From Tubulanus polymorphus (lineage: Eukaryota; Nemertea; Palaeonemertea; Tubulaniformes; Tubulanidae): a stretch of 64,000 nucleotides of DNA. The stretch covers positions 13,249,951-13,313,950 of the forward strand of contig NC_134035.1 in assembly GCF_964204645.1 (NCBI RefSeq). The letters run 5' to 3'. Within the stretch, counting starts at the first letter, position 1, and every line of letters begins with the position of its first letter. The notes under the pieces were generated by a model. The model was not told where the DNA came from, searched no databases, and worked only from the letters and a program-made list of their open reading frames with translations. Of the stretch, positions 1 through 63,725 are shown piece after piece. The position numbers and the translations under genes were made by a program.

Positions 1-390
1 GTGGAACTGAGTACAGAACTGTGGAACTGAGTCCAGAACTGTGGAACTGAGTCCAGAACTGTGGAACTGAGTCCAGAACTGTGGAACTGAGTACAGAACT
101 GTGGAACTGAGTCCAGAACTGTGGAACTGAGTACAGAACTGTGGAACTGAGTCCAGAACTGTGAAACTGGAACCTGAACTGTGGATCTGGGTTCAGGACT
201 GTGGATCTGAGTCCAGAACTGTGGAACTGGAACCTGAACTGTGGATCTGGGTTCAGGACTGTGGATCTGAGTCCAGAACTGTGGAACTGAGTCCAGAACT
301 GTGGAACTGGAACCTGAACTGTGGATCTGGGTTCAGGACTGTAGATCTGAGTCCAGAACTGTGGAACTGAGTCCACAACAGTGGAACTGG
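1..390. repeat. 20-bp minisatellite
   Basis: About 19 head-to-tail copies of a 20-bp unit of the type gtggaactgagtccagaact, with variants (gtggatctgggttcaggact, gtggaactggaacctgaact) in the right half. The array runs off the left edge. The unit equals the terminal sequence of the MITE seen at 40819-40928, and related short arrays occur at 5093-5440, 10345-10655, 15632-15942 and 51340-51480. Because 20 is not a multiple of three, several frames stay open through it by chance; I do not regard these as coding. Confidence 0.95.
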
Positions 391-1038
391 ATTTCTTATT
401 TTGTATGATGTATGTAGTCTAGTACAACACCCACTTAAAAATACCACTGATAAACAAATATCATTGGGAACTAAATATGATTAGAACATTTGGAGACAAA
501 ATTGATAAAAACCTAATCCAAATTTTGTATCTAAGGCGGCCAGCCTTGCAAGGATTCGATCTCGGACCTCTAGTCTATAATGCAGTGGTCTCAACCATTC
601 GGCCAAGCTGACCGGTGTGATTGCTGACGTGCTCGACTGGAATTCATAGAGTGGAATCTCCAGTGACGTCATTATTCATTTGAATGGGAATCTCCTCATG
701 TATGTCCCACAACTATCCATCCAGAACAGAACAACCAATCAATTCTAGAATCACAGTCCCCTTTATTAAAACAAATAAAACAACTAATCTAATCTCGAAA
801 TCGTATCGAATACTTGTTGTTTGCGACAAAGTCACATGCAGACAAATATTGACCGTATTGAAAATGTTGTGTGGAAATCTTGAGTACTCGCGGTACTCAA
901 GATCCGCCAATCTGGTAAAAAACTATGGACCTCGGTCCAAATTTACGGGATAAATGGTTTAAACATTGTGATTATTTTTCTTGTAGAACCTTACAGAACT
1001 TTATACAGATATTGTTTAAATTTATTTCTATATAACAG
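391..1038. other. gap upstream of GULO copy 1; SINE fragment inside
   Basis: There is no convincing gene here. A tRNA-derived SINE head lies on the minus strand at about 531-615: read in reverse it carries an A-box-like ggccgaatggttgag and a B-box-like gagatcgaatcc. From about 963 the sequence becomes homologous to the intron that follows exon 1 in GULO copies 2 and 3; left of that point homology stops, so exon 1 of copy 1 is either outside the window or lost. Confidence 0.6.
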
Positions 1039-4000
1039 ATATTAAGGTTAGCAGTTGACGAAGGCAGGACTGTTAAAGTGGTCGGACTGGGTCGATCGCC
1101 CTCCGATATCGCTTGTACCAATGAATACATGATATCTCTACAAAAATTCGATCGAGTCGTTGAAGTAAGTTAGAAAATCTGTGAACTGTAGACATTTCAA
1201 GCCTTTAAAACCTGGAGAAAATAAATAATCTGGTCTCGAGGGAAGATTTCTGAGAATCCAGTAAGAACTCCATCCCCGAATAACAGTTTCATTAGTGATA
1301 TAAACACGAGCACATAAACGCCTATATCATCACAAAACTGATGAAACTTTAATGAAATGTTAATTCACTCCCTGAAACGACTTTACTTATATATTTCAGT
1401 TCATCAGTATTTGATCGTGCCAAAATATGAAATACTCGATTTTCTTTTTCATTTTAAGGGATAAATATCCTTCTCATTTATTTCATTGAATTATTTTTGT
1501 GTTTTGATTTATCCTGATTTGGTGAGTTCCTTCAGAAATTCACCAGTCACACACCTACCGCTAACGAAACAGAATATTTCATTTTCTAAATCGGAAATCG
1601 AAGTACAGATAATATTAGAACTTGTAGATACATCTGACACGTGATAAATAAGACAGTGTCAGACATCTTATCGTTTACAGTTTGAGTACATATTAACAAC
1701 ATGAATGTGTCTAGTCATGTGACAAACACTATCATATTTAAATACTATCACGTATGACATGTTTTTATTTTTCTCTTATAACAGATTGATAATGAGAAGT
1801 TCACTTGTACCGCAATGGCCGGTATTTCAATTGAGCAACTCAATCACATCCTGAAAGATAGTGGTTTATCTCTCAGTCAGTAAGTATACCCCCTCGGCCC
1901 ACGTGTCCAGTCACCCAGTCACCTAGTCACCCAGTCACCCAGTCACCCAGTCATCCAGTCACCCAGTCACCCAGTCACCCAGTCGTCCAGTCATCCAGTC
2001 GTCCAGTCACCCAGTCACCCAGTCACCCGGTCATCCAGTCATCCAGTCACCCAGTCACCCAGTCACCCAGTCGTCCAGTCATCCAGTCATCCAGTCACCC
2101 AGTCAACCAGTCACCCAGTCAACCAGTCACCCGGTCACCCAGTCATCCAGTCACCCAGTCACCCAGTCACCCAGTCACCCGGTCACCCAGTCAACCAGTC
2201 ATGAAATGTTTTTTTTTTTATTTACAATTCAATGACTATTATATACGTATTAGCATTATTATTATCTGTAGATTACCAGCGATATCGGATATTTCATTAG
2301 CCGGGTTTATATCAACTGCAGTTCACGGTACCGGAGCTAAATTCGGTGTCTGTTCGACAAACGTGAGTTTAATCTGTGAATTATCATCAATCAACCAAAC
2401 TCTAGAAAGCAATCTCAAACACATTCTGTCCGATGTTCAATTGATCTGTGGTGAAGTAAAGGAAATGCACCCACCCCTTTACCACCCGATACGCACTTTC
2501 TACGATAAAAGATCCAGAACTAAAACAAGCACCTAATTTCACAGTTGCTGGTTCAGTTTGACCGGAATGGAATTAGTTGAAGCAATTTCCAATCGCGTTG
2601 TGTTTATTCGATATCATTTCTAAGGCTACAAAATGATACCTCGTTTCTCCGCAGCGGCCGGCTGATTTTCCAAAAATTTGATAAAATTTGTAATCAGTTC
2701 ATTTCATGGTTAGTTTGATTATGATTTAAAACAAACGTATGTATACAGGGGTAGAGATAGGCCGGGTCAACTTCTAAGCTCAGCAGGCGGAGAATAAGAT
2801 ATCAGCATTATATTGCCTTAACCTATAAGATCTTTAGAACCTGTCCCTTGCATGAAGAGTAATACATCTGTTATTATTGTTTTGGAAATATCAAATTGGA
2901 AATTTGCCACATAGATTGCTGTTTCTATATTTAATAAACCGATGTCACCGAAAATTTAATCTTAGGTAGATAACACAACAGTCACTTTTAAATCTATAAT
3001 TGACATTATATAAATTTGAGAGTAAAATCGTGATGTATCATTTTTTCAGGTTTTAGAAATTGATTTGATGACGAGCGACGGTGAAATTATCCACTGTTCA
3101 CGAGACGAGAATAAAGACGTATTTCTAGCGGCTTGTTGCAGTTTAGGATCGTTAGGTGTCATCATCCGAGCTAAAATACAGTGCGAACCTATATTTAACC
3201 TACAGAGAATCACCTACCCGGTCAAACTGGACGATGTATGTGTGCCATATTTTATGTTCAGTTATATGTGAGAATTGTGATGAAGATTTTTCAAGATTAA
3301 AAGAATATTGAAGAGCCGTAGAATAGTGGCACCTCTGTAACGCGGAGAACGGATAATAAGTTTAAACCCACTTTAAATAGGTCACTAGAGATCATTGTCA
3401 GTCACCTGATGATATTTTACAGTTAATCTAATATCTGAAAGGGAGACATCTATCTAAATCCCATTAATTCATAGCTATTTTACTGGATATGGGGCTTAGA
3501 TAAATCTTGAAATAGTCGGGATAGCCCCCCCCCCCATCCCGGTAGACTCTGGCGTGAAGAATAGAAAATCCGTTTATAACCCACAATATACAGATATATA
3601 GAGTCTTTTGATTCTATTTCTTGAAAAATGAAATTAGTTTTTAATCTTTTAAATTCTGTATATGATCGGTTATAAACTTATTGAATATTGAGGATCTATG
3701 CGTATTTCGACTTCAGTTAGAAATTACCAATGATTTTCACAGTAAGTTGGCATCATTTTCAATATATTTTCAAGGTGCTTGAGAATTTAGACGCTCATTT
3801 GAACGCATCGGATCATTTCGAGTTTTTCTGGTATCCATACACCGAATATTGTATCGCCTTTCACAACAAACGGACTGATGCTGAAAAGGTATATACATCG
3901 TTACATCTCCTCTAGAAATATTCATCTTTGAATAATGTCTCCATTCTAATATCTTTGACACGTGTTTTAACAGACAAAAACTAAAGCAAGTTGGTTCAGA

Positions 4001-5958
4001 CGGATTTTCATCGGATACTATCTACTGGAGCTTTTATATTGGTTCAGGTAAATTAATCAGTCTGGAGCCCGGGCCGTTATAACCCTCAGCCTGGGCTGCG
4101 TGAGAGCCCCGTCTTCACATGTGGTGTTCAGAACTTAACCTGAGACATTTTTGATTAGAAATGAACGAACACCAGATTGACGAGGATTCCAGACTGTAAC
4201 ACCTTTATAACGCCATAAGCCTAGAAAGGTTGCGTGGAAGAATCGTTTACACGTTCTTCTTTAGATAACCATTTTCTAAATGCACAATACCAAACAAAAG
4301 GTGCAACGTTGACAATATTGTCAACTGTTGTTTTATATATTTCCAGTTCATTTGTGCCGAGTTTAACTAGATACATCAATAGGCTGTATCTGTGGTTGAA
4401 TTCTGGTCACACGCGGACGGTAGACTGGTCGCCAAATATCTTCAACTTTGATTGTTTGATGAAACAATACGTGTTGGAATACTCGTTCCCGAGGTACGGC
4501 TCATTTCCCAAATAATCGATTATCTTACTGTAAGTTATCTTTCAATTTCAGGGAAAAGTTTAAGCGTTAAACGACTGAATTGTTGACCTCTCTGAAAACA
4601 CCAGGGGCTGCAGTTACTCACCTGTTGGTTTATAAGATAAATAGAATAAAAAGCTGGACCCGGGGTCCATTTCCAGGTTAATCTCATCTCATCTACTCGA
4701 TGATTATATCTACTAAACAAGTTTAAACGTCCGTGTCCATACACAGCTCACAGCTGAGCTGGTAGTTGACCAAATTATAACGCTAACGATTCCAGACCGT
4801 ATTTTAAAATGCTCCTCGAATCCGATAAAGCTGTGTAACTAGTCACTTTTGTAAAATGATTCTATAATTTTGTTTCTCGGTTTTTACAGAGATAAAACGG
4901 CGCTAGTTTTGAAAGAGTTACAAACTCGAATCATTCAGAATCATCACCAGGCGCATTTACCGATTGAAGTTCGGTTTGTGAAATCAGATGATATTTATCT
5001 GAGTCCGGCTTACGGCCGTGATTCTACATATATCAATATCATCAGCTACAGGTGACTACACAACTACTCATCTGCAGTTCAACTCTCCTCGCATCACTCA
5101 GTTCCTTTATGGACCCAGTTCCACAGGTCTGGAGCTAGTTCCAAAGTTCAGGGCCCACAGTTTGGCTCGACAGTTCTGGACCCAGTTCCACAGTTACTGG
5201 ACCCAATTCCACAGTTCTGGACCCAGTTCCACAGCTCATGACTTGCACAATTCCTTTATGGACCCAGTTCCACATCCCACTTCTAAAGTTCCACAGTTCT
5301 GGATGCAGTTCGACAGTTCTGTATTCAGTTCCGCTGGTCAGGATCCAGTTATATACCCGGGACCCCACAGTTCTACATTTCTTGGGCCTACTCCCAATCG
5401 GACCCAGGTCCATAGTCCATAATTCGGTTCAACGGTTCTGAGTCCTGCTAAACAATCATAGACCTTATTACGTGCACAGTTCTAAAAGCTTTCCTCAAAT
5501 TCTGCTCAGAACTGTGGAAGGAACTGAATGCAAACTGTTTAATTGTTTTAATTGACCGCGATCGTTACAGACCATATGGTAAAGCTATTCCACATTCTGA
5601 ATATTGGGCCGATTATGAGAAAATTGTACAAGAAATCGCTGGTAGACCGCACTGGGCGAAGGTAAGTTGAGGTCAGCAGACATTGCTGTATCATCGGAGT
5701 TCACTTAAAGCCACTATCTTACGCATTGAACCTGTGACACCAGTCATCAGGGAACCTCGATAACATTTGATATTCATGAAGTTTGATGTAGCTTTTCTTC
5801 CTTTTTGTTTATTGTAAATTGTCAAGGCGCACAGTATGGATTGTCATCAGCTGAAGCAACTCTACCCAATGTGGAATCAGTTCCACCGAGTTCGTGAGCG
5901 TTTAGATCCACGTGGAATATTCATGAATCGTTACCTGAGACAAGTGTTCGACAGTTAG
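1039..5958 (+). CDS. L-gulonolactone oxidase-like, copy 1 (exon 1 not in window)
   Basis: FAD-dependent aldonolactone oxidoreductase, the family making the last step of ascorbate synthesis in animals (microsomal in vertebrates). Coding exons read: 1039-1164, 1785-1879, 2272-2362, 3050-3235, 3775-3888, 3974-4047, 4347-4493, 4890-5051, 5571-5661, 5827-5958; phases join without a stop. It lines up with vertebrate GULO throughout: the FAD-domain segment VVGLGRSPSDIACT, then [24 protein letters not shown] and the C-terminal GRPHWAK before the stop. The flavin-attachment His of rat GULO (GHSPSD) is Arg here; the active-site Glu of PIEVRF is present. Exon 1 (N-terminal 42 residues in copies 2 and 3) is not found in the window, so this is partial or 5'-truncated. 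A poly(A) signal aataaa lies at 6413-6418. Intron 3 holds a minisatellite (1905-2200), intron 4 a MITE (about 2626-2812) and intron 9 a 20-bp-type repeat. Confidence 0.88.
1905..2200. repeat. 10-bp minisatellite in GULO copy 1 intron 3
   Basis: Tandem decamers of the form ccagtcaccc, with gtccagtcat and aaccagtcac variants, fill most of intron 3 from about 25 bp after the donor. Equivalent arrays sit in the same intron of copies 2 and 3 but differ in length and order. Confidence 0.9.
2626..2812. mobile_element. MITE-like repeat, gatacctcgtttctc family
   Basis: The left part reads aaaatgatacctcgtttctc and the right part ends with a roughly inverted gagaataagatatca. Related sequence occurs at about 41952-42035 (inside the TYW4 gene) and 54048-54255. 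It is a short inverted-repeat element with no coding capacity; superfamily not assigned. Confidence 0.5.
5093..5440. repeat. cagttccac repeat array in GULO copy 1 intron 9
   Basis: Degenerate 20-bp units such as cagttctggacccagttcca fill intron 9. They are the reverse complement of the left-edge minisatellite unit. Matching, more diverged arrays occupy intron 9 of copies 2 (10345-10655) and 3 (15632-15942), so the array predates the triplication. Confidence 0.85.
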
Positions 5959-6580
5959 AGAGGGAGAGAGAGAGCAATTCATTACTAAAGTCTATCTATT
6001 TTTGTCTGGGATCGATTTTTCTGAAATCTTTTAATCTATTAAACACGACCAGTGAAACTGTGCAGTCTAATCATTAACACTATTGTTTTTTTATTCAATT
6101 TACACTGTATTAAATGATCGCTAAAAAATCTTCTTTATTTCTCTCGTGTTGAAAGAGAAATGATCAACCATTTTTGAATTATTAACTGTTTTCATGGCTA
6201 AAAACGATGATTTTTAAAATGATTTGAAAATTATTCTAAAATGTTTGGCATGAAATCAATATTGTTAAGATTGATTAAGTTCGTAAAATGGAGTCTGATG
6301 CAAATGAGTTGAAGAAGACTTCTTTGGAAATGCTTCAATATCATATTCACTCATAACAGCGATGTATATTAACATTGATTGCTTAATTGATACTATCAGA
6401 TTATATAAACTAAATAAAATGCAAATATAGACAATATATGGTTAGTTGTTAGTCGTATGTGTGGTTTTAGGGGTCCAGACTCCTGCCTCCGTATCGAAAC
6501 ACTCTTTAAAACAGCGCCGACAGATTGGCGCGACCAGTGGAACTTTTCACCAACGAGGGCTGTTAGGCGAAGCTCATATA

Positions 6581-6757
6581 CAGTGGAACCTCGTTACTGC
6601 GAACTTCACGGGAACAGAAAATCTGTTCGTTATAACCGATAGTTCATTATGTCCAGTATGAAATCAATCGAATTGTCTTTCAACGGACAAAATGCTATAT
6701 TTGGTTTATCCGATGAAGAACCGTTGTATCCGAGTTGGTTGTTACGAGGTTCCACTG
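6581..6757. mobile_element. Tigger/pogo-type MITE, copy A
   Basis: Terminal inverted repeats cagtggaacctcgtta at the left and taacga-type ggttccactg at the right flank a 177-bp body with internal palindromic sequence (gttcgttataaccgatagtt). The flanks are TA-rich (tata on the left, tgta on the right), consistent with a TA target duplication. The CAGTG..ACCTCGTTA terminus is of the kind seen in pogo/Tigger elements. No transposase is present. Confidence 0.8.
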
Positions 6758-7216
6758 TGTACGCATTTTCCCGGCATTTGAACCATATGAAATTTCGTTG
6801 GAAAGTGTGCAAACAACCCGGTATCTATGATAGAGCAGTAACCGCGGGTGTGATTGCTTTAGAGGCTGATGTTCCGAAGAGTCTCTTCTCTTGTCGCTGA
6901 TGTATTACAGCAACAACTCAAACTCTTGTCGATTGAAGAAAGAAAAAACGTATTTTCTTTTGTTCAAATGTCAACCGTCAAACCGCTTTATATTCCTGTT
7001 AATATCGAAACTAGATTTACTCGCTGAACTACGTCGGAAAAGTGTTAAAAGTTCTCTCGCGACTGTCTGAGTTTGGCTGAGAGACACAGCGACAAAAATT
7101 CGAAATTCAATTCTTCGTTTTAGAAGTGCATAGTTTATGTAACATTTTTATGTAACCGGATTTCATATTGAGGCCGTCGTATTTGTATTCTATCCGTCGG
7201 TGGGAACTAACACTGG

Positions 7217-7225
7217 TATAATATA
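7217..7225 (+). promoter_or_regulatory. possible TATA element of GULO copy 2
   Basis: The sequence tataatata lies 91 bp before the ATG. The same motif stands at the same distance (12523-12531) before copy 3. No other promoter support was seen. Confidence 0.3.
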
Positions 7226-7307
7226 TTGTGTGTGCACGAAATTGAAATAAATCATCGGATAAAAAATCGGATTATTCAATGACGTGTTTCTAGCGACTAA
7301 CGATAAA

Positions 7308-10300
7308 ATGGCGGCGATGGTCGAAATGACAGGCGAAAAACGCGATGACTTCTATTTTGAGAACTGGTCGCGAACGTTTTCGTGTCGTCCTGAATTATAT
7401 TTCACACCAGAAAATGAAGACCAACTCAAACAGGTATATGTAATGAAGGCTCAACATTGTGATTATTTTTCTTGTAGAACCTTACAGAACTTTACACAGA
7501 TTATGTTAACAGATATTAAGATTAGCGGTTGACGAAGGCAAGACTGTTAAAGTGGTCGGACTGGGTCGATCGCTTACCGACATCGCTTGTACCAATGAAT
7601 ACATGATATCTCTACAAAAATTCGATCGAATCGTTGAAGTAAGTTAGAAAATCTGTGAACTGTAGACATTTCAAGCCTTTAAAACCTGGAGAAAATAAAT
7701 AATCTGGTCTCGAGGGAAGATTTCTGAGAATCCAGTGAGAACCCCCTCCCCGAATAACAGTTTCATTAGTGATATTAACACGAGCACATAAACGCCTATA
7801 TCATCACAAAACTGATGAAGCTTTATTGAAATGTTAAGTCACTCCCTGAAACGACTTTACTCTTACTTTCTCTGATAACAGATTGATAATGAGAAGTTCA
7901 CTTGTACCGCAATGGCCGGTATTTCAATTGAGCAACTCAATCACATCCTGAAAGATAGTGGTTTATCTCTCAGTCAGTAAGTATACCCCCTCGGCCTGTG
8001 TCCAGTAACCCAGTCGTCCAGTCATCCAGTCACCCAGTCATTCAGTCACCCATTTATCCAGTCACCCAGTCGTCCAGTCGTCAAGTCATCCAATCGCCCA
8101 GTCGTCCAGTCACCCAGTCGTCCAGTCACCCAGTCGTCCAGTCATCCAGTCGTCCAGTCATCCAGTCACCCAGTCGTCCAGTCACCCAGTCATCCAATCA
8201 CCCAGTCGACCAGTCGTCAAGTCATCCAGTCACCCAGTCGACCAGTCACCCAATCGTCCAGTCAACCAGTCGACCAGTCGACCAGTAGCCCAGCCATGAA
8301 ATATATTTTCTTCTTTACAATTCTAATGATTATTATACATGTATTATTACTATTGTCTGTAGATTACCAGTGATATCGGATATTTCATTAGCCGGGTTTA
8401 TATCAACTGCGGTTCACGGTACCGGAGCTAAATTCGGTGTCTGTTCGACAAACGTGAGTTTAATCTGTGAATTATCATCTATCAACTTCTGTCCAATGTC
8501 CAATATTGAACAATTTACCATATATAGATTGCTGTTTCCATATTTAATAAACCGATGTCACAAAATACATATATATATAACTTAATAAATAACAGGGACT
8601 TGAAAGTCTGTAATTATGATATAAATCTGAGAGTAAAATCGCGATGTTTCATTTTTTCAGGTATTAGAAATTGATTTGATGACGAGCGACGGTGAAATTA
8701 TCCACTGTTCACGAGAGGAGAATAAAGACGTATTTCTAGCGGCTTGTTGCAGTTTAGGATCGTTAGGTGTCATCATCCGAGCTAAAATACAGTGCGAACC
8801 TATATTCAACCTACAGAGAGTCACCTACCCGGTCAAACTGGACGATGTATGTGTGCCATCTTTTATGTTCAGTTATATGTGAGAGTAAAATCGAAAATGA
8901 ACTGATTTTCACAGTAAGTTGGCATCATTTTCAATATATTTTCAAGGTGCTTGAGAATTTAGACGCTCATTTGAACGCATCGGATCATTTCGAGTTGCTC
9001 TGGTATCCGTACACCGGATATTGTATCGCCTTTCATAGGAAACGCACTGACGCTGAAAAGGTATATACATCGTTACATCTCCAGAAATATTCATTTTTGA
9101 ATCGTCTCCATTCTAATATCTCTGACACATTTGTTTTAACAGACGAATACTAATGCAAGTTGGTTCAGACGGTTTTTCATTGGATATTATCTGCTGGAAT
9201 TTCTATATTGGTTCAGGTAAATTATCAATCTGCAACCAGAGCCGTTACCGCCCTCAACCTGGGCTCCGTGAGAGACCTCCGCCTTCATATAAGTGTTCAG
9301 AATTTTACCTAAGATATTTTGAAAATGAACTGAAAATACCAGACAAAACATTTTATCAGCATACTTTCAAAAACTGATCGTCCACACTTCACATGTGTTC
9401 AGTGCTTCACCTGAGACATTTTTAATTGAAAATGAACTACAAACATCAGACATTAGACATTTTATCAGCACACTTTCACAAACTGATTGTCCACACGTCA
9501 CATGTGTTCAGTGCTTCACCAGAGACATTTCAATTGAAAATGAACTAACGCCAGATTGACGTGGATTCCAAATTGCAGATTGACACCTTCATAACGCCAT
9601 AAGCCTAGAAAGATTGCTTGGACAGTGGCGTTGGAAGTGCAGTTTTTCAACTGGAAAAATTGTTTATAGTAATACTTTCTTCTTTAGATAACCATTTTCT
9701 AAATGCGCAAAACCAACTAAAATCGTACAACGTTGATAACATTGACAACTGATATTTTATATATTTCCAGTACATTTGTACCGAGTTTAACTAGATACAT
9801 CAATAGGCTGTATTTATGGTTGAATTTTGGTCACACGCGGACGGTAGACTGGTCGCCGAATATCTTCAACTTTGAAGTTTTGATAAAACCAGACGTGATG
9901 GAATACTCGTTCCCGAGGTACGGCTCATTTCCCAAATAATCGATAACCTCTTACTTGGGATCAATTTCAGGGAAAAGTTTAAGCTTAAAACGGCTAAGTC
10001 TGAATTTGTTGACTTCATTGAAAACATCCAGGCCAACTATTTGTTGACCAAATTTTGACGCCAAGATTCCAGACCGTATTTCAAATCTCCTCGAATCCGA
10101 CGGTGCTGTGTAACTAGTCACTTTTGTAAAATGATTCTATAATTTTGTTTCTCGGTTTTTACAGAGATAAAACGGCGCTAGTTTTGAAAGAGTTACAAAC
10201 TCGAATCATTCAGAATCATCACCAGGCGCACTTCCCGATTCAAGTTCGGTTTGTGAAATCAGATGATATTTATCTGAGTCCGGCTTACGGCCGTGATTCT

Positions 10301-12613: not shown

Positions 12614-15600
12614 ATGGCGGCGATGGTCGAAATGACGGGCGAAAAACGCGATGACTTCTATTTTGAGAACTGGTCGCGAACGTTTTCCTGTCGTCCTGAA
12701 TTATATTTCACACCAGAAAATGAAGACCAGCTCAAACAGGTATATGTAATGTAGGCTCAACATTGTGATTATTTTTCTTGTAGAACCTTACAGAACTTTA
12801 CACAGATTATGTTAACAGATATTAAGATTAGCGGTTGACGAAGGCAGGACTGTTAAAGTGGTCGGACTGGGTCGATCGCTTACCGATATCGCTTGTACCA
12901 ATGAATACATGATATCTCTACAAAAATTCGATCGAATCGTTGAAGTAAGTTAGAAAATCTGTGAACTGTACACATTTCAAGCCTTTAAACCTGGAGAAAA
13001 TAAATAATCTGGTCTCGAGGGAAGATTTCTGAGAATCCAGTAAGAACCCCCTCCCCGAATAACAGTTTCATTAGTGATATTAACACGAGCACATAAACGC
13101 CTATATCATCACAAAACTGATGAAACTTTATTGAAATGTTAAGTCACTCCCTGAAACGACTTTACTCTTACTTTCTCTGATAACAGATTGATAATGAGAA
13201 GTTCACTTGTACCGCAATGGCCGGTATTTCAATTGAGCAACTCAATCGTATCCTGAAAGATAGTGGTTTATCTCTCAGTCAGTAAGTATATTTACCCCCT
13301 CGGCCTGTGTCCAGTAACCCAGTCGTCCAGTCATCCAATCGCCCAGTCGTCCAGTCACCCAGTCATTCAGTCACCCATTCACCCAGTCACCCAGTCGTCC
13401 AGTCATCAAGTCATCCAATCGCCCAGTCGTCCAGTCGACCAGTCGACCAGTCATCCAGTCACCCAGTCACCCAGTCACCCAGTCACCCAGTCATCCAATC
13501 ATCCAGTCACCCAGTCGTCCAGTCACCCAGTCATCCAATCACCCAGTCGACCAGTCGTCAAGTCATCCAGTCATCCAGCCATGAAATGTATTTTCTTATT
13601 TACAATTCTAATGATTATTATACATGTATTATCATTATCTGTAGATTACCAGTGATATCGGATATTTCATTAGCCGGGTTTATATCAACTGCAGTTCACG
13701 GTACTGGAGCTAAATTCGGTGTCTGTTCGACAAACGTGAGTTTATTCTGCGAATTATCATCAATCAACTTCTGTCCAATGTCCAATATTGAACAATTTAC
13801 CATATATAGATTGCTGTTTATTAAGTAATATATATGTATTTTGTGTGACATCGGTCTTTCAAATATGGAAATAACAGTCACTTTTAAATCTATAATTGAT
13901 TATATAAATCTGAGGGTAAAATTGTGATGTATCATTTTTTTCAGGTATTAGAAATTGATTTGATGACGAGCGACGGTGAAATTATCCACTGTTCACGAGA
14001 CGAGAATAAAGACGTATTTCTAGCGGCTTGTTGCAGTTTAGGATCGTTAGGTGTCATCATCCGAGCTAAAATACAGTGCGAACCTATATTCAACCTACAG
14101 AGAGTCACCTACCCGGTCAAACTGGACGATGTACGTCGGCCATCTTTTATGTTCAGTTATATGTGAGAGTAAAATCGAAAATGAAATGATTTTCACAGTA
14201 AGTTGGCATCATTTTCAATATATTTTCAAGGTGCTTGAGAATTTAGACGCTCATTTGAACGCATCGGATCATTTCGAGTTGCTCTGGTATCCGTACACCG
14301 AATATTGTATCGCCTTTCATAGGAAACGCACTGATGCTGAAAAGGTATATACATCGTTACATCTCCTCTAGAAATATTCATCTTTGAATAATGTCTCCAT
14401 TCTTATATCTCTGACACGTGTTTTAACAGACAAAAACTAAAGCAAGTTGGTTCAGACGGTTTTTCATTGGATATTATCTGCTGGAATTTCTATATTGGTT
14501 CAGGTAAATTATCAATCTGCAACCAGAGCCGTTACCGCCCTCAACCTGGGCTCCGTGAGAGACCTCCGCCTTCATATAAGTGTTCAGAATTTTACCTAAG
14601 ATATTTTGAAAATGAACTAAAAATACCAGACAAAACATTTTATCAGCATACTTTCAAAAACTGATCGTCCACACTTCACATGTGTTCAGAACTTCACCTG
14701 AGACATTTTTAATTGAAAATGAACTACAAACATCAGACATTAGACATTTTATCAGCACACTTTCACAAACTGATTGTCCACACTTCACATGTGTTCAGTG
14801 CTTCACCAGAGACATTTCAATTGAAAATGAACTAACGCCAGATTGACGTGGATTCCAAATTGCAGATTGACACCTTCATAACGCCATAAGCCTAGAAAAA
14901 TTGCTTGGACAGTGGTGTCTGAAGTGCAGTTTTTCAACTGGAAAAATTGTTTATAGTAATACTTTCTTCTTTAGATAACCATTTTCTAAATGCGCAAAAC
15001 CAACTAAAATCGTACAACGTTGATAACATTGACAACTGATATTTTATATATTTCCAGTACATTTGTACCGAGTTTAACTAGATACATCAATAGGCTGTAT
15101 TTATGGTTGAATTTTGGTCACACGCGGACGGTAGACTGGTCGCCGAATATCTTCAACTTTGAAGTTTTGATAAAACCAGACGTGATGGAATACTCGTTCC
15201 CGAGGTACGGCTCATTTCCCAAATAATCGATAACTTCTTACTTGGGATCAATTTCAGGGAAAAGTTTAAGCTTAAAACGGCTAACTTTGAATTTGTTGAC
15301 TTCATTGAATACATCCGGGCCAACTATTTGTTGACCAAATTTTGACGCCAAGATTCCAGACCGTATTTCAAATCTCCTCGAATCCGACGGTGCTGTGTAA
15401 CTAGTCACTTTTGTAAAATGATTCTATAATTTTGTTTCTCGGTTTTTACAGAGATAAAACGGCGCTAGTTTTGAAAGAGTTACAAACTCGAATCATTCAG
15501 AATCATCACCAGGCGCACTTCCCGATTCAAGTTCGGTTTGTGAAATCAGATGATATTTATCTGAGTCCGGCTTACGGCCGTGATTCTACATATATCAATA

Positions 15601-45718: not shown

Positions 45719-47986
45719 CAGAGCATCAGCTTACAAAGTGTTTGATTTAATGTTGAACTATATGATCACTGGATTCAGTTGCACAGTCGCTAGAAAGTTG
45801 TCTAAAAAATCTTAATTCTGGTCTTAAGTTGTTAGAAAGGCTATAAACAAAATGAGTTTTACTGGTCTTTAAGTTGTTAGATTGGTTATAGAAACAAAAT
45901 GAGCTAAGTCTGGTCTTAAGTTGTTAAAATTGGCTATAGAACCGAAATCAGAATTGTCTTTGTTGAAGACTGGTCTTAAATCTAAGACGTGATTACGCGT
46001 AGCAAGCCTCTAAATAAGAAACACTGTATTGAAGTTAACAATTGTGCATTAGTTCTCAATCTCAATAAATGGAGTGTCCCGGATTCGAATTTTATAGTTA
46101 CTCATGCTGATTCTGAGTGGATTCTCATTCATACCCAGTCCATGTTTCCCCGCGATCCAGCCCATCGTCGATATTCGACCGTCGACTTTATTCGGATCAT
46201 TTGGAACCAACAAAATTCACCCGGTTTGCTGGAAATCCGGATTATTGGTCATTTCTTGTATATTAATGAGCAATAAATGGACTGCAAATATTGTCTGGAT
46301 TAGACCAAAATATGGATTCAGGCGATCTGAATTTATAGCGGGTTTTACTGTATTTGAAAGTTTATCGATGATACAGTAGACTCCGCTTAATTCGGTCATT
46401 TGGAAGCAACAAATTTAATCCGGTTTACGAGAAATCTGGATTATTGGTCATTTCCTTGTATATTGATGATCATGGACTACAATTATTGTCTGGATTAGAC
46501 CAAAATATGGATTAAGCCGATCCTGGTTGGCCGATTTGGATTAAGCCGATTTGGTGTTTTGACAAGTAGAAAAACGTCTCGGATCTATAGACGACGAAAC
46601 GCGTCGACCAAAACAGAATCGATTTACATATAATCACGTTGCGAATATTCGAGATCCATTGATTTCAAAAGTAGCCCAAATTACCGTTATTATTATCACG
46701 AAATTATTACTGAATTGTCAATTTATGTTCGATACAGATTGTTAGGTCATAAGCTATTTTATGGTCAGCACGTTTCTTTATTGCACCATCAATGCAGTCG
46801 TACCGGAGGGTCGGGTAGCGACGAACCCCTAAAAATCATCAAAGTGGCGTTTCGGTTGGGCCAGTCAATACATTTGGGGCAAGACTTTTCGAAATTTGGA
46901 TACTATTTTCAAGTTTTACAGTAGATTGCCTGAAATTATAGGATCTGGTCGCACCCTATTAAGGTCTGGTTTTTGGGTCGACTTTTTGGAATATCTTTCC
47001 TGCCATATGATTTTTATAGTCCTCTATAGTCGAACCCGTACGTCGCTTTGTCCTTGCGACGTGGCAGTGTATTTCCCAGTACAGATGCGAAAATATTAAT
47101 GAAACCTGTTTGAATAAATGTCATCCAAGAACATAAGGATTCCACCAAAACCTTTTGTTACTTTAAGATATTCTTGATTCGCTGAAAAAACAATGGAGAA
47201 ATTGAGATGAGAACTGGGCGATCACCGGGACGCGTCTCCAGTCGCCACCGTCACTTCAACTCAGATATATGTGAAATTAAACAACTTCCCATGAAAATAT
47301 TTACAAAATTGATATAAAGATTATCGGAAATATAAATAGTAATCATGTAATAAAGTTTGTTAGGTGTAAATTATTGTTTGATTTCGCCAGGGGTCGATTT
47401 AGAAAAAGGACCCGAGTTCGGCGTCATACCGCGTCTGACGAAACTGCTCTGGTAGGGTCAAAATAAATCGTCAAATTCCACCAGTTTTACCGCTCCAAAT
47501 TTCACAAAACTTCGTCAGTTGATAGAAAACAACATTATCTTTCATCTGAAATAATAGTTAGATGGATTTCGAGATGCGAAACGTATTAATTTTTAGCTTT
47601 AGAACAAAGTTTTATTTTATTGTCCGCGATTGTCTTCAAACAACTGAGATTTCGATACCGTTAATGAATATGAAATATCGATTTGATCACATAGATTGAT
47701 AGAGTCAGATCTTGGCTTTCAGAATATGTTAGTTATGTTTGGGTTTGAGCGGTGATAATTCGAGAAATTAACCGTTTATGAAAATCATCCAGCACAAAAT
47801 CCGCGTCGGTGAATTCAGCTGAATAGAATCGAGCGCTCTGCGCGTAGCAGCGGTACGTGCGCGTCGGCAATAGTTGAACATATACAAGCGCGTATCGGCT
47901 GAACGGACATCACTCGAACTGTAGAAACCGTTCATTCAACACGTCGCGTTCTGATCTACGAGATTATCAACTCAACTACTACAACC
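45719..47986. other. gap between TYW4 and histone H1; MITEs
   Basis: 45775-46000 is a MITE of the cagttgcacagtcgtgactt family with two or three tandem cores. 46180-46560 holds two tandem pogo/Tigger-type elements with the terminus acagtagactccgcttaatt (46373-46392) and body ggattattggtcattt. Short frames at 46715-47099 have no recognisable domain. 47100-47860 shows nothing I can name; 47820-47986 is the H1 promoter region. Confidence 0.6.
46180..46560. mobile_element. tandem pogo/Tigger-type MITEs
   Basis: Two related blocks of about 190 bp share ttcggatcatttggaa/ttcggtcatttggaag, ggattattggtcatttctt and attgtctggattagaccaaa. The element end tacagtagactccgcttaat with inverted ggattaagccgat pieces is typical of TA-inserting pogo-like MITEs. 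Confidence 0.65.
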
Positions 47987-48589
47987 ATGTCTGACGCCGT
48001 AGCCGCCGCTCCAGCCTCGCCCGCTAAAAAGGCCGTTGCAAAGAAGACCGCGAAACCGAAAGCTCCGGCCGCTCATCCCCCGTTCAACGTCATGGTGAAA
48101 GCCGCTATCACCGCCTTGGGAGACAAAACCGGATCGTCTCTGGTCGCCATAAAGAAGTACATCGCCGGACACTACAAGGTCGACATCGAACGTCAAGGCA
48201 CCTTCATCCGTAAAGAACTGAAATCCGGACTCGAGAAGGGAACTTACGTTCGTTACATGAACAAAGGTCAAGGCGCTTCTGGACGTTTCAGATTGAGTCA
48301 GGGAGCGAAGAAAGAAGAGAAAGATGCCGCCAAACCGAAGAAAGTCGTAAAGAAACCAGCCGCCAAGAAGGTCACCAAACCTAAAGCAGCTAAACCGACG
48401 AAAGCGAAGAAGCCTGCCGCTAAGAAAACAACCGCCAAGAAAGCGACGAAAGCTTCGCCGAAAAAGAAAGCTGCGGCCAAGCCTGCCAAGAAAACCAAAA
48501 CTCCAACCAAGAAGGCAGCAGCCAAACCGGCCAAGAAAAAGACTCCAGCGAAGAAAACCGCCGCTAAGAAAACTGCAGCAAAGAAATAA
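47987..48589 (+). CDS. H1: linker histone H1
   Basis: Intronless 200-aa linker histone. An Ala/Lys/Pro N-terminal tail (residues 1-31) is followed by the winged-helix globular domain (about 32-105), with [50 protein letters not shown] and GASGRFRLS. The C-terminal tail is Lys/Ala/Pro-rich with KKPAAKK and [11 protein letters not shown] repeats. It binds nucleosomal dyad and linker DNA and compacts chromatin. The lack of introns and the 3' stem-loop at 48622-48637 mark it as replication-dependent. No core histone gene lies within the window. Base composition is more GC-rich than the flanks. An ACATATACAAG element about 110 bp upstream (47877) could be the TATA region. Confidence 0.97.
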
Positions 48590-59665: not shown

Positions 59666-59910
59666 TTTTGGATTTAGATTCAAGTCTCGAATATTCTTCC
59701 AATCCCAGGTTTTGTCCAGATTTAAACTTGTAAGTCATTATTAAACTGCACTTCACTATCAATGAATATAATCAGACATTTATGTAGATAACAGTCATGT
59801 ATTTATGCATTTAAATCCGTATTTCACAAAACGTTCTTTTGTAATTAAAAGTATGCACGACTTTGTACATTATCGATCGTCTCTTTACAGTCCCCGCAAA
59901 CCGTGAAGAC

Positions 59911-62900
59911 ATGTATAAGCTGACGGCTTTATTGCGGAACGGACCGCGACCTGTCCGGCGTATTGTCTCCGGTCGTTGTTTCGGAACGATGACGTCACCG
60001 CTCGACGAACAGTTGAAACAATCGTCGCAAACGAACGAAACAGAAGTAAAACCTCAATTAAACCTGATTTATAAAACGCTACCTTACACCAACGACCTGC
60101 GTAGCATAATCGACACCACCCAACACAATATATACTTACATAATATTCTAAAAGGAATGAAAGTTTTGTTCCTATGCAACCATTACAATACTCTTACGCA
60201 ACGCGTCGAAACGGAACTGAAAGAATACGACGTTACGGTGACGTCACAAGCGGTACGCGGTAAAAAGGATATCCTGAAAGCGGTTTCGGAAATCGAACAC
60301 GATATAATCGTCTGCCCGTTCCTAACGCGACGAATTCCCGAGGAGGTTTGGGCGAACGATCAGAAACCGTGTTTGATCGTACATCCGGGTATTACCGGCG
60401 ATCGAGGCGCCTCGTCGATCGACTGGGCGTTGAAGATGCAAGCGGCCGAATGGGGCGTTACGGTGATGCAAGCAGCCGAAGAGATGGACGCCGGTGATAT
60501 CTGGGCGAGTAAAACATTCCCTATACACCAGGTTACCACCACCAAAACAGAACTGTACGTCGGTGACGTCACAGACTCGGCCGTCGAGACGGTCCTGCTG
60601 GCTCTAGTGCGCTTCAAACTCGGGATAGAACCGATACCGCTGGATTACGATAATCCGCAGGTGAAAGGGACGCTGATGCCGCTTATGAAAGATAAAGATC
60701 GAATGATCGATTGGAATTCGTCGGCGTTCGATGTAGCGGAGACGATTCGTATGGCTGATACTCAACCTGGAGGAATCGGTACATTACAGGTAAGCCCGAG
60801 ATACAAGCCGCTTACTGTGGCTAGTGAGGATCCGCAAGGTGTCGCACTAGTCGTTACTACCATGTGTGCTTCAGTTTCTTCTACATTGCAATTAAAATGT
60901 GGGGATCCACCAGGTGTCACCAGTGAACACACCAGATGGCGCAACTAACAGTCGGTTTAACGTTCTTTAAGCTACGTACGCGTACATCGTTTGACATAAC
61001 TGAGAGTTGGTGGGTTCGAACCCCAGTTAACCTGCTCTATTTGGTCAAGTCGATAAATGGTACCAGAATATTGGTATGAATGTATATATGTAAATTTTTT
61101 ACACTAGGGTGATGACAGACCGTTGAGATTTTTCGGCGCGAAATACACGGAAAATTTGATGTTTAACGGGAAACATATCCGTAATTTTATGCTGGACGCG
61201 AGACCTGGCGACGTTCTGGGGCACAAAGACGAGGCGATACTCGTGAAATGTGGAGATAACAACGGCGTCTGGATTTCACATCTTAAAGTGAGTATTTTGA
61301 GGTTCGAATCCCGATTTACACGTCTTGAGTTGCAGATTTAAAGTTGTTAAAAATGATTTGCAAAGTGACATTGTTACTGAGCATGCGAAAGGATGTAAGG
61401 TCTCAAAAGTGGGTTGTTTTTTGGATCTGGTCCGATGCCAGGGCCCGATAATGACAAGTCAAAAACAGCGCAATATCATCCAAAAAGATTTGTCAAGATT
61501 TTGAAAATATTCTAGATATGTTTTTATCAGGATTTTATCATAAATCACCGTATTTTCTAAGAGATAAGCGCATTTATGGTGAATCTATTTTTTATTCTTA
61601 TTTTCCGCAGTGTCCATCGTCTGATAAACCGTTAAAACTACCGGCAACATCGGTATTCAAAGGAACCGACACTTTACACGACTTGTCGTTCTTATCTTCC
61701 TATCGTGAAATCTGGGTCGACGAAATCGATAACGTAGCTTACGTCAATTTCGATTTTTACAACGGAGCGATGAGCGTTACGCAATGCCGTAAACTAAAAT
61801 CCGTTCTCGATAGACTTTCGTTTCGACCGGATATCACGTGCGTTGTACTGAAAGGCGGATTCAGGTTCTTCTCAACAGGTTGGTGATTTTATTCGTATCA
61901 CAGTGTCTTATTCCGTTGTAATGGAATCACGCGCTGTAGTTGCTCAGAATTCGGTAGATTTAAATGTGGGATCAATAGGTAGAATGATTGTAATGGCATT
62001 CTAACCATGCTGTTGGTTTTTAGCAGTTTAAACCTACCAACTTTTGAGCAGCGGTAGTTTTAGTCCAAAGGGCTTCACAATTTTCTACAAGTTATTTCAA
62101 AATAACCAGTGGAGAACTGAAAATTGACTTCTTAAACTTGCAACTATTTCCATTATCCACTGAACCACTTTTGAACAAATAGTAATTGGGTTTAAGTTAA
62201 AACTATTCAAAACCTGGACCAATTGCTAAGGCAAGGTTTGGAGTCTATTTTGGTTCAATAACCGGCCTAACGAGTTAAAGCGAGTAAAGTTCATGACAGC
62301 GAATCTGTTTATTTAGAAAAATCATGTTTATATTTTCTCTATTTCCTTGTAGGAATTCATTTGAATGTAATCGAAGGAAGCGATGACCCGGAACGCGAAT
62401 CTTATGACAACATCGTTGCAATCGATGACGTCATCAGAACGGTGTTCTCAATGAAACATAAGACGACCGTGTCGTGTTTGATTGGTAACGCCGGAGCCGG
62501 TGGGGCGATGATGGCCGCCGCTACCGATTTCGTTTTTGCTCATAAGGTACGAGTCTTCCTAAGAGGGTTATATGTGCCCCTAGCCCGGGTTCAAACTCTC
62601 TCGGTTAAGATTTGAGTCTTCTATTCAAAACGTTGACTAATTTAACCAAGTATGTTGACCAAGTTGTATAACCTGGTTATACCTGTTATCCTCGACCTAG
62701 TTATTCGTGACCTAGTTATTTACGACCTAATTATACGTGACCTCGTTGTCTATAACCTAATTATTTATTCATTGCATCGATAGCAAACTCCATGAATGAA
62801 TGATTTATTTACTTGTACAAGATTATAAACAATCAATTCTTTGGATATAATTTCATAGATAAATAGGTACATGTATAAGAAGGACAACCCCAAGCCCTAG

Positions 62901-63725
62901 GGGCTGAGCCACCATCATCAATGATTCATTGAAATACTGTTTATGCTTCTCTTATTTCAGGGAGTTGTTTTGACGCCTACGTATAAAGCGATGTACCTTT
63001 ACGGATCGGAATACTGGACGTACTTCCTGCCGCAGAGGGTCGGTTACGACACGGCGCTGTCTTTGACAAACGACACGAAATCGATGATGGCTTCAACTGC
63101 TCAACGTATTGGACTAGTCGATCAGATCATCGGACGGTATGAGTACCCCCAACCAACTCATCTCTTACTCTCTCCGTCTTCTTTACCTTTCCCATTCTCC
63201 CCTCCTCAGCTGAATCTGCCTCTCACTCCATCTTCCCCAGCCTCCCACCCTATCCCATTCCCCTCCCCACTCTCAACCCTCCCGATCCATCCACTCGCTG
63301 TCGCTACCAATTGCTTTCGTCGCTTCTCTTTTAGCACTTGCTTTATATTCATCCAGGTCCACTTTCCAATATACCCCCCCCCATCCTTAATTTCATCCAC
63401 ACAATTTTCTTTTTATGCATTCTGATGACTTTCATGAAAGAAATGATAACCGCAAGCAGGTACTGAAAATGTATTCCACAAAATTCACGCCCGTATTTTT
63501 GTTTTTAACAGGAATCGACCGGAAGCGTTGGGAAATTTACACGATCGAGTCCTGAATTTGTTACAATCGGAAAAATGTCAAACGAAACGTGAAGAGAAAC
63601 GCAATAGAACTCACGAATGGTATCAGATGTTAGAGGAACATCGAACCGAAGAATTGAGCAAAATGCAGAAATGTTTCAGTAGCGAGGATTATCACGAGGC
63701 CAGGAGAAAATTCGTCTATCACTGA
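59911..63725 (+). CDS. HypX/HoxX-like formyltransferase-crotonase fusion protein
   Basis: Six exons: 59911-60789, 61108-61287, 61611-61878, 62353-62546, 62961-63136, 63512-63725; 636 aa. The start chosen is ATG 59911, 20 bp after an acceptor; earlier in-frame codons lie in the intron. Residues 1-27 are Arg-rich without acids (MYKLTALLRNGPRPVRR), a likely mitochondrial leader. Residues 83-260 form a formyltransferase N domain with IVHPGITGDRGASS (His158) and EMDAGDIWAS (Asp193); a second formyltransferase-type segment follows to about 350. Residues 370-590 are a crotonase fold with GIHLNVIE (443-450), oxyanion-loop GNAGAGG (487-493) and YGSEYWTYFLPQRVG (521 on). The tail ends SEDYHEARRKFVY. 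This order and these motifs are those of bacterial HypX, which makes CO from a formyl group for [NiFe]-hydrogenase assembly. The substrate and product in an animal are unknown. Confidence 0.88.

Follow-up and report, generated by a model that had tools for sequence, protein, structure and literature searches.

An intron-containing HypX/HoxX-family gene of the nemertean Tubulanus polymorphus as a candidate for CO formation outside of hydrogenase maturation

The gene at positions 59911-63725 of the analyzed DNA raises the question of what an animal would do with a relative of HypX/HoxX, the best-studied members of which serve the maturation of [NiFe]-hydrogenases. The analyzed DNA, called the window in the following, comprises 64,000 nucleotides of the forward strand of contig NC_134035.1 (13249951-13313950). 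The gene is present in one copy in the 268-Mb nuclear genome. The reading that is preferred here, to which we assign a probability of roughly 0.6, is that it encodes a HypX/HoxX-family enzyme outside of hydrogenase maturation, probably a mitochondrial or cytosolic 10-formyl-tetrahydrofolate (10-formyl-THF) decarbonylase that makes CO. It is the homology to the bacterial proteins that suggests CO as the product in the animal; a use for it and the mitochondrial location are putative. The literature searched, the coverage of which was partial, contained no report of a HypX in an animal, and sequence databases may already hold automatic annotations; the HypX papers that were checked mention neither eukaryotes nor animals.

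Gene structure and family membership

The gene consists of six exons on the plus strand, as are all further features of the gene given below. The exons are spliced into one unbroken frame of 636 amino acids (aa), in agreement with the first-pass annotation, and all five introns have GT-AG borders and keep the frame. Exon 1 (59911-60789, aa 1-293) encodes the leader, a helical extension, and most of the formyltransferase domain, and exon 2 (61108-61287, aa 294-353) encodes the end of the C-terminal (OB) subdomain of the formyltransferase. The linker and the start of the crotonase domain are found on exon 3 (61611-61878, aa 354 to the first base of codon 443), the motifs GIHLNVIE and GNAGAGG on exon 4 (62353-62546, aa 443-507), the motif YGSEYW on exon 5 (62961-63136, from aa 508), and the C-terminal helical tail with YHEARRKFV on exon 6 (63512-63725, to aa 636 and the stop codon). 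All four motifs had also been named in the first-pass annotation.

Pfam detected the domains Formyl_trans_N, Formyl_trans_C, and ECH_1 on the 636-aa protein, and NCBIfam yielded weak, generic matches far below the cut-offs. In a phmmer search against solved structures the best match was Aquifex HypX (6J0P/6J1F), which covered aa 82-634 with an E-value of 1.3e-98, and the next-best family was 10-formyl-THF dehydrogenase with 5e-10. A profile that was built from bacterial HypX proteins alone, with the animal sequence left out, scored the animal protein from end to end with 592 bits (profile positions 1-550 of 573), compared to 26 bits for the top-matching crotonase exon of the same animal among the tested loci. 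When 194 bacterial genomes were scored with the A1 model, in which the animal sequence is one of the rows, the distribution was bimodal, i.e., full HypX genes had at least 625 bits, and everything else had at most 92. The structure of the exon 1 product was predicted with AlphaFold from an alignment of 25 rows (pLDDT 82), and a single-sequence prediction (pLDDT 41) was set aside. The top eight Foldseek matches of this model were Aquifex HypX (1.7-1.8 Å), and the distances to other formyltransferases among the matches listed were 3.3-5.7 Å.

As had been claimed before, formyltransferase domain, linker, crotonase domain, and C-terminal tail are collinear with bacterial HypX over the full length, and neither phmmer nor the profiles nor Foldseek placed the protein closer to another formyltransferase or crotonase family. 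The assignment of the animal protein to HypX/HoxX is thus strongly supported. No relative of it was found on viral contigs. It shares with HypX of Cupriavidus necator and Aquifex aeolicus (PDB 6J0P) the domain order, the length, the His/Asp/Asp triad, the Tyr/Glu pair, the motifs GNAGAGG and GSE(Y/F)W, and the C-terminal tail, and the identity is about 37% over 550 aa. In contrast to these, the animal gene is nuclear and has five introns, and its product has an N-terminal addition of 82 aa with a presequence-like start and reads TPTYK around the catalytic Tyr, where the bacterial proteins have NPHYK.

The start of bacterial HypX aligns with M83. The addition in front of it begins with a basic, arginine-rich leader (aa 1-26, 59911-59988), a possible mitochondrial presequence, which is followed by M27 as a possible second start. 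The first 30 residues have a net charge of +6 and lack acidic side chains, and their helical moment of 0.75 is rarely reached by shuffled sequences (p 0.0012). In the exon 1 model aa 1-26 are disordered and aa 27-82 are mostly helical. A cleavable mitochondrial presequence is plausible from these features, and initiation at M27 could give a cytosolic form. Mitochondria produce 10-formyl-THF from serine. The start codon is not certain, because a putative acceptor site near 59890 shortly precedes the in-frame ATG at 59911, and translation could instead begin at M27.

Catalytic residues and the proposed reaction

In Aquifex HypX His74, Asp80, and Asp109 were assigned to formyl transfer, and Tyr416 and Glu426 to decarbonylation (PMC6802093). 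In the alignment all five are kept in the animal protein, namely as H158 (codon 60382-60384), D164 (60400-60402), D193 (60487-60489), Y515 (62982-62984), and E524 (63009-63011), and so none of the HypX catalytic residues is lost. The N-terminal triad of HypX has Asp in place of Ser, which fits the animal triad. The equivalents of H158, D164, D193, and E524 are invariant in 91 of 91 aligned bacterial homologues, and the equivalent of Y515 is Tyr in 86 of them. In five Bacteroidota HypX proteins that are linked to hyp/hydrogenase genes (loci L053, L060, L067, L081, L101) the position of Tyr416, the proposed base of the decarbonylation, is occupied by Thr (NPHTK), and thus Tyr416 is less strictly conserved than the sample in PMC6802093 had suggested.

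The CoA-contact residues Q97 and N404 are kept and match well-conserved bacterial residues. The contacts to the 3'-phosphate of CoA, Ser194, Gln195, and Asn306, correspond to T284, Q285, and N404; two are identical, the third is a conservative exchange, and the first two positions vary also in bacterial HypX. Arg131, which contacts the diphosphate, corresponds to Val217 in the animal protein; the diphosphate contacts were found not to be crucial by the authors of the structural study (PMC6802093). From 88 near-invariant bacterial positions 79 are kept. Among the nine that differ, three surround Y515 (N512T, H514T, G519Y) and one is found in the FSNG motif (N442T), so that the second step could follow a changed chemistry.

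The two-step chemistry is known from the literature on bacterial HypX. Transferred to the animal enzyme, H158, D164, and D193 of the N-terminal domain would catalyze the formyl transfer, with 10-formyl-THF as donor and a bound CoA as acceptor. The arm of this CoA would then reach the crotonase domain by swinging through the cavity inside the protein, and there Y515 and E524 would split formyl-CoA into CO and CoA. Rather than binding to a metal, this CO would serve as a signal or as a gaseous product. A passage in a review (PMC12134894, citing Schulz 2020) states that bacterial HypX turns 10-formyl-THF into CO in vitro. The harm that CO in quantity would do beside cytochrome oxidase counts against the formation of CO in mitochondria.

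The four exchanges named above speak for an enzyme without CO formation, the main alternative, which we regard as unlikely. It would have kept the N-terminal step, but the crotonase domain would release formyl-CoA or hydrolyze it to formate, and in this way the enzyme would drain surplus one-carbon units from mitochondria. Animals already have enzymes that hydrolyze 10-formyl-THF (ALDH1L), which is in line with such a function. However, the residues linked to CO, Y515 and E524, are retained, and at four of the five catalytic positions no aligned bacterial relative deviates. The hydrolase domain of ALDH1L1/FDH shares with the animal protein the formyltransferase fold acting on 10-formyl-THF and the presence in animals, but it has a His/Ser/Asp triad, an ACP-type acceptor, and an ALDH domain instead of a crotonase domain, and its match to the animal protein has an E-value of about 1e-10, compared to 1e-98 for HypX.

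The family name and the role of the best-studied relatives would suggest that the protein serves [NiFe]-hydrogenase maturation, be it for the animal itself or for a symbiont. However, an exon-wise search of the animal genome, a method that limits the weight of an absence, gave no match for the large subunit of [NiFe]-hydrogenase (PF00374) and none for HypD (PF01924), while the control bacteria were positive for both. In this respect the animal genome differs from C. necator and Aquifex, and the result is in line with the earlier remark that animals are not known to have [NiFe]-hydrogenases. A maturation role is therefore very unlikely and largely refuted, and in the case of a symbiont the host-encoded protein would also have to reach it.

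Animal CO is attributed to the breakdown of haem, with haem oxygenase as the established source. Haem oxygenase would yield the same gas as the proposed decarbonylase, but it is an unrelated protein with haem as substrate; the exon-wise search, with the same limit on the weight of an absence, gave no match for it (PF01126) in the animal genome. If the animal HypX is indeed a 10-formyl-THF decarbonylase, it would represent a second animal route to CO, which is fed directly by serine/folate metabolism. CO is likewise made by animal tissue in the gas glands of siphonophores (Physalia, Nanomia). Wittenberg reportedly found in 1960 that the CO of the siphonophore float is formed from serine via folate, and to our knowledge no enzyme has been identified for this CO formation. 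The siphonophore gas gland has been studied for folic acid derivatives, as indicated by a reference in PMC6820529. HypX performs the missing step from folate to CO, and by analogy we hypothesize that it is a candidate for the siphonophore enzyme, so that the animal gene puts a concrete name to a possible CO source of the floats.

Chromosomal setting and origin

The gene is located about 13.3 Mb into the contig, and neighboring exons in the window match the NAP, UVSSA, Shisa_N, Kelch, and linker histone families, showing that the locus is part of an animal chromosome. Together with the five in-frame introns this position excludes, for practical purposes, a bacterial contamination, for which nothing speaks except the bacterial relationships of the family. 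A dead insertion is equally improbable, because the 636 codons contain no stop and all catalytic residues are intact. The first-pass annotation had argued against contamination with the introns and with repeat DNA in them. The part on the introns stands, but the repeat DNA is scarcer than it claimed. The sequence of intron 3 (61879-62352) is single-copy, the sole intronic repeat found across the gene is a small tandem array at 62681-62764 within intron 4, and another tandem array (60425-60480) falls within exon 1. The case against contamination is thus made by introns and chromosomal neighbors, and the repeats contribute nothing. A separate fusion event in animals, in which both folds are common, might have joined a formyltransferase and a crotonase of the ordinary type. 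This origin has a negligible probability and is refuted by the profile scores, because the single collinear match of 592 bits spans also the linker and the tail, and because the HypX-specific equivalents of Asp80 and of the Tyr/Glu pair are present.

The animal sequence forms a branch with a length of about 2 changes per column, and its identity to any bacterial homologue is at most 44%. Two groupings passed the AU tests without rejection, one with the proteobacterial clade that is linked to hydrogenases (p 0.47) and one with the orphan clade of cyanobacteria (p 0.56). Because the branch is long and these two quite different placements are both compatible with the data, no claim is made on a donor, the age of a transfer, or membership in the orphan branch.

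Two further features of the window were observed. A linker histone H1 domain is encoded by an open reading frame at 47903-48586. Long, coding-like minisatellites with SHPVTQSP and PQFWTQFHSS repeats are found at 1-8400 and 13257-13825, and they contain no recognized gene.

HypX genes of bacteria and their neighbors

Scans of plasmids and genomes yielded 91 bacterial HypX loci. Hyp or hydrogenase genes were found nearby in 35 of them, e.g., on C. necator pHG1, and no match to such genes was detected near the other 56 (orphan loci), a number that is an upper bound, because several of these are short contigs. Ten of the 20 orphan-HypX genomes that were tested had no match to the [NiFe] large subunit. 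Hydrogenase-independent HypX is thus widespread in bacteria, and in orphan-HypX genomes without [NiFe]-hydrogenase the annotation "hydrogenase maturation protein" is misleading. The orphan proteins (Acaryochloris, Mycetohabitans, Pseudomonas, Lysobacter, Marinimicrobium, Peribacillus, Nocardia) are the same enzyme as the animal protein, and the lack of a detected [NiFe]-hydrogenase is shared by several of the host genomes. They differ from the animal gene in that they have no introns and no leader, and some of them adjoin genes for MHYT sensors.

Blind clustering of the neighbors at orphan loci revealed one leading recurrent family after HypX itself. The clustering was single-linkage and merged this family with kinases and GGDEF/EAL proteins at some loci. 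Pfam identified the recurrent neighbors as MHYT membrane sensors, which occur as stand-alone, MHYT-PAS-GGDEF-EAL, and MHYT-histidine-kinase forms. An MHYT gene adjoins HypX in nine orphan loci (L027:11736-14159, L032:3234-6029, L037:8625-9407, L042:167-925, L047:9194-9979, L052:11863-12702, L054:11727-12467, L057:11983-12633, L084:11809-12684), compared to none of the 35 hyp-linked loci (Fisher p 0.011). The arrangement was found in Peribacillus, Methylococcaceae, Pseudomonadales, Cellvibrionaceae, Marinimicrobium, Nocardia, and Streptomyces, i.e., in Bacillota, Gammaproteobacteria, and Actinomycetota. Such genomes contain roughly zero to five MHYT genes, and in one genome the sole MHYT gene found is the one that adjoins HypX. 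The probability of MHYT adjacency by chance in four independent lineages was roughly estimated to be about 1e-7, before correction for the number of families examined.

MHYT is said to have been proposed as a sensor of O2, CO, or NO by Galperin et al. in 2001. The adjacency together with the proposed gas sensing fits the view that the CO made by orphan HypX is a signal, and supports it without proving it; HypX and MHYT are possibly a pair of CO-maker and CO-sensor. The link covers only a part of the orphan loci and says nothing directly about animals. The results point to a hydrogenase-independent branch of bacterial HypX with a proposed gas sensor as recurrent neighbor. The widest version of the decarbonylase reading, which is tentative and for which we see somewhat less than even chances, is that a mitochondrial enzyme of the HypX family is a second, haem-independent CO synthase in at least one animal lineage, that it may be the enzyme of the siphonophore float, and that in hydrogenase-less bacteria HypX forms a CO-signaling pair with MHYT.

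Further neighbors were seen at other orphan loci. Genes for regulators of the DJ-1/PfpI-AraC type (GlxA-like) were found repeatedly a short distance upstream of the orphan HypX gene, namely in methanotrophs and in one Pseudomonas (L044, L075, L086, L088, L091). The orphan HypX gene of Mycetohabitans (L019:12001-18428) adjoins a set of genes for an acyl carrier protein, an acyl-CoA dehydrogenase, and an amino acid-[carrier protein] ligase.
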